The notes under the pieces were generated by a model. The model had not been told where the DNA came from, ran no database searches, and saw only the letters and a list, made by a program, of their open reading frames with translations. A stretch of DNA of 12,668 nucleotides from Nitrospirota bacterium (GTDB taxonomy: Bacteria > JACPQY01). The translations under genes were made by a program, and so were the position numbers. Of this stretch, positions 1 to 12,668 are shown piece by piece; within the stretch, counting starts at the first letter, position 1, and the number at the start of each line of letters is the position of its first letter. The stretch is taken from the NCBI GenBank assembly GCA_016180645.1, contig JACPAV010000063.1, positions 1-12,668 of the forward strand, in the 5' to 3' direction.

Positions 1-87
1 TCCACCCCGAACCCCTTCGGTCGTACCGGCACGAACCCCATTAGCGGCACCCCCTCGGACGCCATCGGCCGCACCACCTCGAACGCC
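1..87. repeat. 24-bp tandem repeat inside the lipoprotein gene
   Basis: On the minus strand the codons for GVR recur every 24 bases (residues 78, 86, 94 and 102), giving three full degenerate units and part of a fourth, cut by the window edge. The period is a multiple of three, so gain or loss of units would keep the reading frame. Confidence 0.75.
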
Positions 88-318
88 CTCGCCGTCGATC
101 TCAAGGTCCGCGACTCCGCGCGTGTCGCCTGCGAGCGCGTCGGGATCATCCGATGCCAGCCCGTTGAGCGCCGCCGCCTGAGAAGCGCTGAGCGGGACCG
201 CCACCTCCAAGATAACGGGATCACCCGACAGCGAATCCTTTTTCGACGTACACGCAGGGGTGAAGAAGAAGGAGGCAACCAAGCCCGCGGCTGCAAAACG
301 TGTGACACTTGCGTTCAT
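1..318 (-). CDS. Putative lipoprotein with 8-residue GVR repeats, C-terminus outside window
   Basis: This is the first 106 codons of a minus-strand gene that runs off the left edge. The N-terminus has one Arg, a hydrophobic stretch (residues 8-19) and the lipobox-like TPAC at 20-23, followed by TSKKDS, so Cys23 would be lipidated and the protein anchored in a membrane facing the periplasm or outside. The start at 318 has GGAGG six bases upstream; an in-frame ATG at 324 touches that GGAGG and is less likely. Residues 78-106 are a tandem of an 8-residue unit (GVRGGAAD, GVRGGAAN, GVRAGTTE, GVRGG...) still running at the edge. The part between signal and repeat is acidic and Ala-rich, and I recognise no domain. 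It diverges from the desaturase-like gene. Function unknown; the lipoprotein call is fairly safe. Confidence 0.72.
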   Translation of the reverse strand, partial: MNASVTRFAAAGLVASFFFTPACTSKKDSLSGDPVILEVAVPLSASQAAALNGLASDDPDALAGDTRGVADLEIDGEGVRGGAADGVRGGAANGVRAGTTEGVRGG

Positions 319-439: not shown

Positions 440-468
440 TGGACAAGCACGATCTCCATGTGTAAAAA
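440..468 (+). promoter_or_regulatory. Predicted promoter of the desaturase-like gene
   Basis: TGGACA (440-445) is followed after 17 bases by TAAAAA (463-468). Transcription would begin around 475, only a few bases before the ATG at 478, implying a leaderless or almost leaderless message. This fits the absence of a Shine-Dalgarno sequence before the ATG. Another TTGACA at 356-361 has no convincing -10 partner. Confidence 0.4.
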
Positions 469-487
469 TTACCAGCCATGGAGATCG
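450..487. promoter_or_regulatory. Perfect 11-bp inverted repeat over the -10 box and start codon (possible operator)
   Basis: CGATCTCCATG (450-460) and CATGGAGATCG (477-487) are exact reverse complements separated by 16 bases. The gap holds the predicted -10 box, and the right arm contains the start codon of the desaturase-like gene. Such a dyad is what a dimeric repressor bound over a promoter would use. If transcription came from further upstream, it could instead form an RNA hairpin hiding the start codon. The symmetry is seen directly; the role is inferred. Confidence 0.55.
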
Positions 488-1293
488 ACGCTTCGGATAG
501 GCCCGCGGGAGGATTTTCAATCGAGCGGTATGTTGAATCCTCGCGGCCGTTGGATTTGGAGGGCATTCAGTGGGAGCAAAGTCGGGAGTATCCCATCACC
601 CCGGAGGTTGTCCGCGCGGTCACCTATTTCATGGACATCGAATACCAGACGATCAACTATCTCCGTGATCTCTTAGCGGCGGGGGCGGCCAACGATCCGG
701 AGATCGCCGTGTTTCTTTCCTGTTGGGGGTATGAGGAGATGTTCCACGGTCGCGCATTGGAGACGTTCCTGAAACAGTACGGCATCGAGGTCGCGCGAGA
801 GCGCCTCGCCGAGGTCCGGCGGACGGTCACGTGGCGGGAGCGGTTCGAAGCCTTTGGAGCCAAGTTGTTGGCGAAGTACAACCGCCATTTTCCGGCGTTG
901 TATCTGAGTTGGGGGGCTTCGCAGGAGATTTCGACCCTGATGGGGTATCAGGGGCTCGGACGACGCGCCAACAACCCGATTCTCACGGAAATTACCCGCC
1001 GAATCATCATGGATGAGTCCCGGCATTTCAGCTTCTACTACCACATGGCCCGAAAACACTTGTCTGATCCCCGGGCGCAGCGGCTCACTCGATGGGTCCT
1101 CACGCATTTCTGGTCGCCCGTGGGGCAGGGCGTCAAGCCCGACGCGGAAGTTCGCTGGATTCATCGGTTCATCATGGAGGGTGAATTCGGGAAATCCGCG
1201 ATCCGGCACATCGACTCCATCATCAACAAGCTTCCCGGCCTCGATTCGCTCAACATCCTCGACCGCTACACCACCGCTCTCGGTCCGGCCTGA
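478..1293 (+). CDS. Acyl-ACP desaturase-like diiron protein
   Basis: A 271-residue ferritin-like four-helix diiron protein. The ligand pattern of class II (acyl-ACP) desaturases is present in order: E55 (MDIE), E87 with H90 (EEMFH), E150 (SQEI) and E180 with H183 (DESRH), with spacings close to those of the family. Members use O2 and reduced ferredoxin to place a double bond in an acyl chain carried by acyl carrier protein, in the cytosol. The length fits the short bacterial branch. No signal peptide or membrane segment is seen. An in-frame stop at 463-465 makes ATG 478 the first usable start; no Shine-Dalgarno precedes it. The start lies in a perfect inverted repeat, suggesting regulated expression. 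Related diiron families (for example N-oxygenases) share the ligands, so the substrate is unproven. Confidence 0.8.
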   Translation: MEIDASDRPAGGFSIERYVESSRPLDLEGIQWEQSREYPITPEVVRAVTYFMDIEYQTINYLRDLLAAGAANDPEIAVFLSCWGYEEMFHGRALETFLKQYGIEVARERLAEVRRTVTWRERFEAFGAKLLAKYNRHFPALYLSWGASQEISTLMGYQGLGRRANNPILTEITRRIIMDESRHFSFYYHMARKHLSDPRAQRLTRWVLTHFWSPVGQGVKPDAEVRWIHRFIMEGEFGKSAIRHIDSIINKLPGLDSLNILDRYTTALGPA

Positions 1294-7026: not shown

Positions 7027-7145
7027 CTCGGGCCATCGTGGCCACTCGACACTTGCGCAAGGACCATACATCCGTGTGGCCCTTGCGCTACAACCTCGGG
7101 CCATCGTGGCCACTCGACACTTGCGCAAGGACCATACATCCGTGT
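7027..7145. repeat. Two copies of a 51-bp direct repeat at the ssrA 3' end
   Basis: The 51 bases at 7027-7077 recur without change at 7095-7145, a period of 68, separated by 17 bases. A degenerate tail of an earlier copy (GCAAGATACCATACAT) precedes them at 7011-7026. Each copy contains small palindromes: GGCCATCGTGGCC, CTTGCGCAAG and CCATACA-TCCG-TGT. The second copy stops one base short of the mature 3' end of tmRNA, and its last hairpin (7132-7149) uses the two terminal C residues of the tmRNA acceptor strand. Confidence 0.85.
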
Positions 7146-7146
7146 A

Positions 7147-7493
7147 TGGAGGCGCCGGGAGTCGAACCCGGGTCCGAGGATACGCGGGGAAGGACGCCTA
7201 CGTGCGTGTTCGGTGTTTTATTTTGTCCCGCCGTCCCCCACCGACAGGGTGCGGCGGGACTAGGTCCCAGTATTATCTCGATCGTCGCCCTGAGTCCGCG
7301 ACGCCGACCTATCCCGCATTGTAACGCCCGTTCCAAGCCGGCAGGAGCGACCTGGGCGGACGCCTCAGCAGCTAACTAAGCCGCGAGAGGGAGTGCCGTT
7401 GTTTCGGCGTTTGTTGGTTCTCCCCCACTTACCCGGAGAGAGTTAGGGCACGCCATCTTTCCTGTTGTATCCGCGTCGAAACCATACGCCCCC
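7147..7493 (-). ncRNA. ssrA: Transfer-messenger RNA (tmRNA)
   Basis: A one-piece tmRNA, which with SmpB frees stalled ribosomes and tags the unfinished protein. On the minus strand the 5' end GGGGGCGTATGGTTTCGACG matches the tmRNA start. The 3' end GGTTCGACTCCCGGCGCCTC supplies the T arm and the partner strand. The acceptor stem pairs GGGGGCG with CGCCTCC and contains the G3-U70 wobble that marks alanine charging, with discriminator A; CCA is not encoded. Pseudoknot 1 can form from GCCC/GGGT and TCTCC/GGAGA. Ten bases later the predicted resume codon GCC (7406-7408) opens the tag AETTALPLAA, ending at TAG (7376-7378), ten encoded residues as in E. coli. It is convergent with argC. The exact 5' base is set by the stem pairing. 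Confidence 0.95.
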
Positions 7494-9202: not shown

Positions 9203-12200
9203 TCAGGGCAGGTTCGTAACCGGGACGGGGGTCAACCGATTGACCGTCGTGCCGTCGCCGAGTTGGCCGTACTGACCGGAGCCCCAGCATTTCACCATGC
9301 CATCGGATTGGAGGGAACAGGTGTGAACGTTGCCCCCCGCGATCCCGCTGGCGGCAGAAAGGGACGCCACCGGGACAGGCGTCGACTTGTTCACGGTCGT
9401 CCCGTCCCCAAGCTGACCGTTGCCATTGCTCCCCCAGCATTTCACCGTGCCGTCGGAAAGAAGGGAACAGGTGTGATTGACGCCCCCCGCCACGGCGACA
9501 GCACCGCTGAGCGTCGACACAGCGACGGGGGTCGATTTGTTCACCGTCGTCCCGTCCCCAAGCTGACCGAAGGGATTGTACCCCCAGCATTTCACCGTGC
9601 CGTCGGAACGAAGGGAACAGGTGTGACTGTTGCCCGCCGCGATGGCGACAACACCGCTGAGCGTCGACACGGCCACGGGGGTCGATTTGTTCGCCGTCGT
9701 CCCGTCCCCAAGCTGACCGTAGGGATTGTACCCCCAGCATTTCACCGTGCCGTCGGAAAGAAGGGAACAGGTGTGAACGTTGCCCCCCGAGACGGCGACA
9801 GCACCGCTGAGCGTCGACACGGCTACCGGCGTCGTCTTTTGCACCGTCGTCCCGTCCCCAACCTGACCGTTGCCATTGTACCCCCAGCATTTCACCGTGC
9901 CGTCGGAAAGAAGGGAACAGGTGTGGGTGGTGCCCCCCGCCACGGCGACAGCACCGCTGAGCGTCGACACGGCCACGGGGGTCGACTTGTCCGCCGTCGT
10001 CCCGTTCCCAAGCTGACCGTTGCCATTCCACCCCCAGCATTTCACCGTGCCGTCGGAAAGAAGGGAACAGGTGTGATATTGGCCCCCCGCGATCCCGATG
10101 GCGGAAGAAAGAGACGCCACCGAGACAGGCGTCAACTTGTCGGCCGTCGTCCCGTCCCCAAGCTGACCGTAGAGATTGTACCCCCAGCATTTTACCGTGC
10201 CGTCGGAAAGGAGGGAACAGGTGTGAAGACCGAGGTGGTTGGTGAGGCCTTCGCGGAAGGGGCGGGCGGGGGCGCCGGAGGCGGTGGATTCGTGGAGATT
10301 GGGATTCCTTACGCCCATCGGACCCACGGCAAACGAGACGGCCACGGGCGTAGTCTTGCTCACCGTTGTCCCATCTCCAAGCTCGCCCTGGGGGCCAGCC
10401 CCCCAGCAGTTCACCGTCCCATTCGACAGGAGTGCGCAAACATGGAACTCCGCGGTCGAGATGGCAACGGCATTTGTGAGGGTGGAAACCGCCACGGGCG
10501 TCCACTTGTCAACGGTCGTCCCATCTCCCAATTGGCCAAAACTAGTTGCCGACCAGTAGTTCATGCCCCAGCATTTGACGGTCCCATCCGAAAGGAGCGA
10601 GCAGGTGTCGAAACCGCCCGGGGAAACAGTTGCGGCATTTGTGAGGGTGGAAACGGCGACGGGCGTCCACTTGTCAACGGTCGTCCCATCCCCAAGCCTC
10701 CCGTAGGCGTTGCCTCCCCAGCACTTGACGGTCCCGTCGGACATGAGAGCGCACATGTGGCCGCTGCCGGCTGCCACTGCCACCGCGTTCGAGAGAGACG
10801 ATACGGCCACGGGGGTCGTCTTCTGCAGCGTTGTCCCGTCGCCGATCTCCCCACTGAGATTGCGCCCCCAGCATTTCACTGACCCATCCGACACCAGCGA
10901 ACAGGCAACGTCGCCGCCGGAAGCCACTGCAATGGCACCCGTCAGGCTGGTAACGGCCACGGGCGTAGTCTTGTTCGCGGTGGTGCCGTCCCCCAACTGG
11001 CCATAGCTATTGATCCCCCAGCACTTGACCGATCCGTCCGAGATGAGGGCGCAGGTCTGGTAGGAGCCCCCTCCCGTCACGGCCAAGACGCTCGAGAGAC
11101 TGGAGACCCCCACGGGGGTTGACGTGAGCGTCGCGGTGGTGCCGTTGCCCAACTGACCTTCCAGGTTGCGTCCCCAACATTCGACGGTCCCATCCGAAAG
11201 GAGCGCACAGGTATGCATATAGCCGCCGGTGACGGACACCGCGTTGGTAAGCGAGGAGACGGCCACGGGGGCTGATTTGTTCACCGTGGTACCATCCCCG
11301 ATCTGGCCCTCCGCATTGCGTCCCCAGCACTTGACCGTGCCGTCCACCATGAGCGCACAGGCGGACTTGCCGATGTGACCCGAGATGGCTTTCGCAACAC
11401 CGGTGGTGGACCATGTGCGGGCGTATTTTTCGACGGTGTTGGTGTCCACGTTGCCGGCTTCGTCGCGGGCGCGGACGACGTAGTACACTTGGTTGCCGAA
11501 CGTGAGCGAGCCGTCGCCGTAGTTGACGGCCCCGGCGGAGGTTGTGAACGTGGCGTTAAAACTTCCTTGGCAGTCCGCTTGAGGCGCCTCACGGCAGATC
11601 TGGTAGACGATGTTTCCAGTGGCCGTCACCGTGTCCGAACCGGCTGACCAAGCGAGGTTTACGTTGGTTTCGGAAGTGGCCGTGGCGCTTGTGAGGCCGG
11701 CGAACGTCGGCGCAGTCCAGTCGTTCGTCCACGTGATGTCCAGATTGTTCGCCGTTGAGTTTCCGTTCCCGGCGGCATCCACGCAGGCGATGTATCGGGT
11801 GTAAGCGGTATCCGCGTTGAGCGCATCGGTGAACTGGCAGGCGGTTGCGCTCGCGCAGGCGGTGCCGGTCCCCGAGTTGTAGGCGGAGTCGGTGGTGTAC
11901 CATCGGCAGCCGGTGGTGCCGGAGACGGCATCCGTGGAGGTGAGGACGATGTCCGTATTCGAATCGTTTGTTGTGTCGTAATACGTCGTTGCGTTGTCCC
12001 CCTCGACGCTGGTGAGGGTGAGCGGCGGGGCGGTGTAGTCGTTCGTCCATGAGATGTCCAAGTTGTTCGCCGCGTCGTTCCCGTTCCCGGCGGCGTCTAC
12101 GCAGGCGATGGAATATGTGTACGTGCTCCCCTCCGTGGCCGCCCCGGTGAACGAGCAGGATGTGCTTGAGGCGCAGGCGGTGCCGGTCCCTGCGTTGTAG

Positions 12201-12668
12201 GCCGAGTCGGATGTGTACCATCGGCAGCCGGTGGTGCCGGAGACGGCATCCGTGGAGGCGAGGACGATATCCGTGTTCGAATCGTTTACCGTGTCGTAAT
12301 ACGTGGACGCCGTATCGCCCTCCACATTGGTAAGCGTGAGCGGCGGGGCGGTGTAGTCGTTCGTCCATGAGATGTCCAAGTTGTTCGCCGCGTCGTTCCC
12401 GTTCCCCGCGGCGTCCACGCAGGCAATGTAGCGGTTGTAGGTGGTGCCTTCGGTGTCCACACCGGTGAAAGAGCACGAGGTGGCGCTTGCGCAGGCGGTG
12501 CCGGTGCCCGCGTCGTAGCCTGAGTCGGTTGTGTACCAGCGGCAGGCGGTGGTGCCGGAGGGGGTATCGGTGGAGGTGAGGACGATGTCCGTGTTGGAGT
12601 CGTTTACCGTGTCGTAGTACGTTGAGGCCGTATCGCCCTCGACGCTGGTGAGCGTGAGGGGAGGGGCG
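9203..12668 (-). CDS. Large secreted-type RCC1 double-propeller protein with Cys modules and an FN3-like domain (N-terminus outside window)
   Basis: The frame is open from the right edge to a stop at 9203-9205, about 1154 residues. A GTG at 12460 is not the start, because module homology continues upstream of it. In order from the edge: three modules of about 106 residues (APPLTLTSVEGD..., GCRWYTTDSAYN, TACAS, IACVDAAGN), each with several Cys; a fibronectin-III-like domain (about 315-418) with VYYVVRARDEAGNV; then 14 RCC1 repeats of about 50 residues with the core HTCSLLSDGTVKCWG...GQLGDGTT. Repeats 1-7 and 8-14 would make two seven-bladed propellers, separated by a 35-residue Pro/Arg-containing linker. 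Two Cys per blade suggest an oxidising, extracellular location. The signal peptide must lie beyond the window. Probably a surface or secreted binding protein; the ligand is unknown. Confidence 0.88.
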   Translation of the reverse strand, partial: APPLTLTSVEGDTASTYYDTVNDSNTDIVLTSTDTPSGTTACRWYTTDSGYDAGTGTACASATSCSFTGVDTEGTTYNRYIACVDAAGNGNDAANNLDISWTNDYTAPPLTLTNVEGDTASTYYDTVNDSNTDIVLASTDAVSGTTGCRWYTSDSAYNAGTGTACASSTSCSFTGAATEGSTYTYSIACVDAAGNGNDAANNLDISWTNDYTAPPLTLTSVEGDNATTYYDTTNDSNTDIVLTSTDAVSGTTGCRWYTTDSAYNSGTGTACASATACQFTDALNADTAYTRYIACVDAAGNGNSTANNLDITWTNDWTAPTFAGLTSATATSETNVNLAWSAGSDTVTATGNIVYQICREAPQADCQGSFNATFTTSAGAVNYGDGSLTFGNQVYYVVRARDEAGNVDTNTVEKYARTWSTTGVAKAISGHIGKSACALMVDGTVKCWGRNAEGQIGDGTTVNKSAPVAVSSLTNAVSVTGGYMHTCALLSDGTVECWGRNLEGQLGNGTTATLTSTPVGVSSLSSVLAVTGGGSYQTCALISDGSVKCWGINSYGQLGDGTTANKTTPVAVTSLTGAIAVASGGDVACSLVSDGSVKCWGRNLSGEIGDGTTLQKTTPVAVSSLSNAVAVAAGSGHMCALMSDGTVKCWGGNAYGRLGDGTTVDKWTPVAVSTLTNAATVSPGGFDTCSLLSDGTVKCWGMNYWSATSFGQLGDGTTVDKWTPVAVSTLTNAVAISTAEFHVCALLSNGTVNCWGAGPQGELGDGTTVSKTTPVAVSFAVGPMGVRNPNLHESTASGAPARPFREGLTNHLGLHTCSLLSDGTVKCWGYNLYGQLGDGTTADKLTPVSVASLSSAIGIAGGQYHTCSLLSDGTVKCWGWNGNGQLGNGTTADKSTPVAVSTLSGAVAVAGGTTHTCSLLSDGTVKCWGYNGNGQVGDGTTVQKTTPVAVSTLSGAVAVSGGNVHTCSLLSDGTVKCWGYNPYGQLGDGTTANKSTPVAVSTLSGVVAIAAGNSHTCSLRSDGTVKCWGYNPFGQLGDGTTVNKSTPVAVSTLSGAVAVAGGVNHTCSLLSDGTVKCWGSNGNGQLGDGTTVNKSTPVPVASLSAASGIAGGNVHTCSLQSDGMVKCWGSGQYGQLGDGTTVNRLTPVPVTNLP
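9206..10255. repeat. Seven-fold 150-bp coding tandem repeat (second RCC1 propeller)
   Basis: The motif GGGAACAGGTGTG recurs with its GTGTG at 9321, 9471, 9621, 9771, 9921, 10071 and 10221, exactly 150 bases apart. Large parts of each unit are identical in DNA, not only in protein, pointing to recent amplification or gene conversion. Blades 1-7 further upstream in the gene are of similar length but far more diverged, and their spacing is irregular. Confidence 0.9.
11714..12668. repeat. 318-bp coding tandem repeat (Cys modules)
   Basis: Three units with a period of about 318 bases (106 codons). For example, GAGCGGCGGGGCGGTGTAG occurs at 12019 and 12337, and related sequence recurs near 11717. 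The two right-hand units are nearly identical over long stretches; the left-most is more diverged. The array continues past the window edge. Confidence 0.85.

Follow-up and report, generated by a model that had tools for sequence, protein, structure and literature searches.

Operators of TetR- and GntR-type regulators that respond to fatty acids are compact sites in which the spacer between the half-sites is short or absent. For BirA, the operator follows the consensus TTGTAAACC-N14/15-GGTTTACAA and thus keeps its half-sites well apart (PMC545781). In published leaderless genes, on the other hand, it is the promoter itself that lies next to the reading frame, with the first T of the motif TANNNT placed some 12 bp ahead of the start codon (PMC3160421).

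The locus described here has features in common with each of the three arrangements. It lies near one end of a stretch of 12,668 bases, referred to as the window, which is the entire contig C63 of a 4.7-Mb Nitrospirota genome assembled in 65 contigs. An earlier note on this DNA had reported an exact 11-bp inverted repeat at 450-460/477-487 with a predicted -10 box between the arms and a start codon in the right arm, and all of this is confirmed by direct reading of the sequence. The arms are 11 nt long, 100% complementary and 16 nt apart, their centres are separated by 27 bp (about 2.6 helical turns), a -10-like hexamer is flanked by them, and the ATG at 478-480 falls within the right arm, which is made up of the first codons of the gene (ATG GAG ATC G). 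Nowhere else does the window contain a perfect dyad with arms of 11 bp or more and a loop of 3-30. The features of the region are as follows.

1-318, minus strand: divergent lipoprotein-like open reading frame, truncated by the contig edge, with GGAGG ahead of its ATG (316-318); start and lipobox assigned by eye
440-469, plus strand: sigma-70-like promoter hexamers TGGACA (440-445) and AAAAAT (464-469), N18 spacing, matching at 9 of 12 positions, the second hexamer preceded by TG
450-460: CGATCTCCATG, the dyad's left arm, located downstream of the -35-like and upstream of the -10-like hexamer
461-476: spacer of the dyad, 16 bp, TGTAAAAATTACCAGC, containing a short internal dyad, GTAA-AAA-TTAC at 462-472, that is not significant
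477-487: right arm of the dyad, CATGGAGATCG, with the start codon inside
478-1293, plus strand: orphan gene for a likely diiron (ferritin-like) protein of 271 aa; weak FA_desaturase_2 match; EExxH (YEEMFH) and DESRH motifs seen by eye

We consider it probable, with modest confidence, that the dyad is an inverted repeat that arose by coincidence where the orphan diiron gene begins and that this gene is expressed from the leaderless-type promoter at 440-469. The arrangement TGGACA-N18-AAAAAT is the best sigma-70-like site within 300-520, and no other promoter-like site was found on the plus strand of this region; across the window, such sites are not in excess (three versus 2.4 in shuffled sequences). 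The -10-like hexamer begins 14 nt before the ATG of the diiron gene and 461-477 is devoid of a Shine-Dalgarno sequence, so that position 478 has the layout of a leaderless start (no Shine-Dalgarno, and a -10 element that precedes the ATG by about 10-15 nt), the match of the hexamer being approximate. A GGGAGGA at 507-513 is situated inside the diiron reading frame, and no normal start codon is suitably spaced from it. Spacing of this kind recurs in the genome: -10-like hexamers with five of six matches at offsets -17 to -12 were counted 23 times at 626 candidate starts, where about 1.4 were predicted from the rate at 7,318 interior ATGs (16 matches), with the reservation that the gene-call starts are crude and that intergenic DNA is generally richer in -10-like hexamers than coding DNA, other offsets being raised too but less. 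This enrichment fits leaderless or nearly leaderless mRNAs and suggests that there are many of them in this poorly sampled phylum.

The gene had been termed desaturase-like, and a family match does exist, but it lends this name weak support: FA_desaturase_2 (PF03405) is matched with 24.6 bits against a curated cut-off of 22.7 and over residues 71-196 only. Below the cut-offs, the protein also matches models of rubrerythrin, AurF, AcsF and R2-like oxidase. Among proteins of solved structure, a designed helix bundle is nearest in sequence, and a single-sequence structure model was too poor for use (pLDDT 44.7). Judging from its sequence, the 271-aa protein is likely a diiron carboxylate enzyme. 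Since fatty-acid desaturation by this protein is putative, the fatty-acid-responsive regulator that had been proposed to act on the gene has little basis. The divergent frame at 1-318 has no Pfam match; its C-terminal part contains short repeats of the EGVRGG/DGVRGG/NGVRAG type and runs off the contig edge. Further into the window, a tmRNA gene (7144-7493, minus strand, tag AETTALPLAA) lies beside a short sequence containing GCGCAAGGACCATAC that is repeated in direct and inverted orientation (7038-7137), and a large open frame on the minus strand (9203-12667) with RCC1 repeats (13 matched stretches) after repeated extracellular-type domains runs off the contig.

The dyad is locally improbable, yet only mildly unusual for a 12.7-kb window, in which 0.14-0.31 are expected. 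When the surrounding 131 bp (400-530) were resampled, 34 of 40,000 sequences carried such a dyad (about 0.00085, or about 1 in 1,200), and the earlier note was right in calling it unlikely at this position, the figure being post hoc. In Markov-resampled DNA of the same genome, perfect dyads with arms of 11 bp or more and a loop of 3-30 arise about 0.14 times per 12.7 kb (12 in 1.03 Mb), whereas the real genome contains about 0.31 per 12.7-kb window (26 in 1.03 Mb). A larger sample of 2.15 Mb, taken from the genome in stretches and used also for -10-like hexamers and arm words, held 67 dyads of at least 11 bp versus 24 in the Markov control. As 14 of the 67 belong to one dispersed GTATAC-containing family and others resemble terminators or other repeats, the excess over the Markov expectation is partly due to dispersed repeat families.

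Of the 863 other start contexts whose upstream DNA is free, not one carried an 11-bp dyad over the ATG; this set does not include the diiron gene itself because a 153-aa divergent frame overlaps its upstream region. Among 7,858 interior ATGs, there was likewise none with an 11-bp dyad and there were two with a 10-bp dyad, and for arms of 6-9 bp, dyads were not enriched at start codons compared with interior ATGs (863 versus 7,858 contexts). By extrapolation rather than by count, there are roughly 0.0001-0.0002 such dyads per start codon, and therefore somewhat less than one functionless case is expected among the some 4,000 genes of the genome. Nested symmetry was considered as added evidence and rejected: the inner GTAA-AAA-TTAC and the outer AAGC/GCTT are not significant, as 44% of the sequences with shuffled loop and flanks fold equally well when the 11-bp dyad is kept, and 16% of shuffled loops likewise contain an inner dyad.

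It had been suggested that the same palindrome be sought at other genes, in this genome and in others. No second copy was found in the 4.7-Mb genome, neither with spacers of 4-34 and no mismatch nor with a spacer of 16 and up to three mismatches. Among the roughly 85,000 other genomes of GTDB r220, searched for the exact dyad with spacers of 12-20, there was one match, in Janibacter sp. HTCC2649 and with the same 16-bp spacer; this sole hit is coding and lies inside the codons GDLHVLKDINMEIGK of an amino-acid ABC-transporter ATPase gene (family by eye). We read it as a coincidence and as a natural example of such a dyad arising in coding sequence. Single arms with at most one mismatch occur 148 times in the 2.15 Mb versus 33 times for permuted-arm controls, and loosely similar dyads also exceed permuted-arm controls in this sample. 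Because 137 of the 148 single arms are coding (7% are noncoding, compared with a noncoding share of 11.6% of the sequence), the excess of arms and loose dyads appears to reflect a common coding word; the arm word is no intergenic word. A close-relative search of GTDB r220 confirmed no close homologue of the diiron gene. In the searched collection, the phylum is represented by just one other genome, from a different genus of the same family; the diiron gene is missing from it, and an aminotransferase-like gene (family by eye) is present instead, upstream of the helicase orthologue. Across 386 sampled genomes, only distant homologues were retrieved, whose identity of 21-34% over part of the protein led us to judge their promoters uninformative for the start-codon dyad.

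If the dyad is indeed coincidental, its right arm would be nothing other than the gene's own first codons, a common coding word in this genome, and its left arm would match by chance inside the promoter. Transcription from 440-469 would yield an mRNA, leaderless or nearly so, whose first base lies at most a few positions from the ATG, and the DNA from the -35 element to the ATG would serve as promoter and specify no leader RNA. For a leaderless diiron gene, it follows that the left arm and the spacer would be promoter DNA and that its mRNA would contain no hairpin. We infer the use of this promoter, the position of the transcript start and the dyad's lack of function. Several points count against coincidence: the local improbability of the dyad, the lack of an 11-bp dyad over the ATG at all 863 other start contexts, a position precisely suited to the action of a repressor, and a fold that, as RNA, is better than that of nearly all start contexts.

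A dimeric or tetrameric repressor might bind both arms, cover the -10 element and the start site and so block transcription of the diiron gene, making the dyad a single-gene operator. We hold this to be unlikely, though the best surviving alternative: the site is symmetric and covers the core promoter between two divergent reading frames, its arms are perfect, its local improbability (34 of 40,000) speaks in its favor, and BirA sites with long half-sites 14-16 bp apart provide a precedent for the layout (PMC545781). These points are set against the missing second genomic site, which a single-target operator would also lack, the missing intergenic bias of the arm word (137 of 148 coding), the missing match to the BirA sequence, and the geometry of the arms, which face different sides of the DNA because their centres are about 2.6 helical turns apart. 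The earlier note had seen no suitable regulator gene in the window, and in agreement with this, no regulator family was recognised among the genes tested there; the contig ends at position 1. The tests run gave the operator no support, though the dyad may still have a function. Its most specific form, a widely spaced 11-N16-11 operator private to an orphan diiron-enzyme gene that is leaderless and whose start codon is itself an operator element, in a phylum with hardly any sampled genomes, strikes us as decidedly improbable. Should it function as an operator, the dyad would represent one regulatory site of local interest, belonging to a class that is already familiar.

The dyad could alternatively act in RNA, as had also been proposed for the case that transcription begins further upstream: a longer transcript would fold so that an 11-bp stem encloses the AUG and restrains translation. 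The stem itself is strong, with a predicted -17.3 kcal/mol that no shuffled sequence equals; the AUG is wholly contained in it, and only three of 736 start contexts are as stable. Such stability is, however, not very rare at interior ATG contexts (47 of 4,000), no Rfam family matches here, and there is no Shine-Dalgarno sequence before 478 to sequester. The upstream promoter was not found, as 300-520 contains no further promoter-like site on the plus strand, and the only recognisable promoter has its -10 element between the arms at leaderless distance, which would leave the left arm untranscribed. An RNA hairpin is therefore quite implausible in our view. As a by-product of the analysis, the phylum appears to place promoters directly beside start codons, and such promoters warn against reading start-codon dyads there as mRNA hairpins.

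Derivation of the dyad from a dispersed palindromic element, as a REP or MITE remnant, is scarcely credible: several families of dispersed palindromes do exist in the genome, but the dyad is single-copy and belongs to none of them. A terminator was rejected, as on neither strand is the stem followed by a run of T, and so was an invertible promoter, for which the 16-bp spacer is too short; known invertible segments are longer than that. As an observation in its own right, one of the dispersed families, GGTGACAGTATACT...AGTATACTGTCACC, comprises 59 exact half-sites in the genome, mostly in inverted pairs with a spacing of about 16 nt (e.g., C2:32317-32361 and C28:71661-72466; none was found in the window). 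The genome also contains seven matches to a Y1 (IS200-type) transposase, and two of these half-sites, in inverted orientation, flank the match at C28:71990-72319, such that the half-site family and the transposase together resemble a REP/RAYT-like system. A second palindrome family, TCGCAATGACA...TGTCATTGCGA, was seen at L070:12403-12435, L079:10690-10718 and L107:12252-12281, two of the three copies overlapping the earliest start available to a long open frame.

In comparison with known systems, the dyad shares with TetR/GntR-type fatty-acid operators that it is an inverted repeat over a core promoter, but it differs in its 16-bp spacer and in having neither a linked regulator nor another genomic site. 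What it has in common with the BirA operator is a promoter location and a pair of long inverted half-sites separated by about 15 bp (PMC545781), whereas the half-site sequence is unrelated, the arms here are of 11 bp with a spacer of 16 bp, and the gene is not a biotin gene. As for the coincidental dyad on a leaderless-type promoter that we favor, the counterpart is found in the leaderless bacterial promoters of Deinococcus and Actinobacteria, with TANNNT next to the open reading frame: although the hexamer here, AAAAAT or TAAAAA, is an inexact TANNNT, a -10-like element likewise precedes an ATG lacking a Shine-Dalgarno sequence by 12-15 nt (PMC3160421, PMC12340547).
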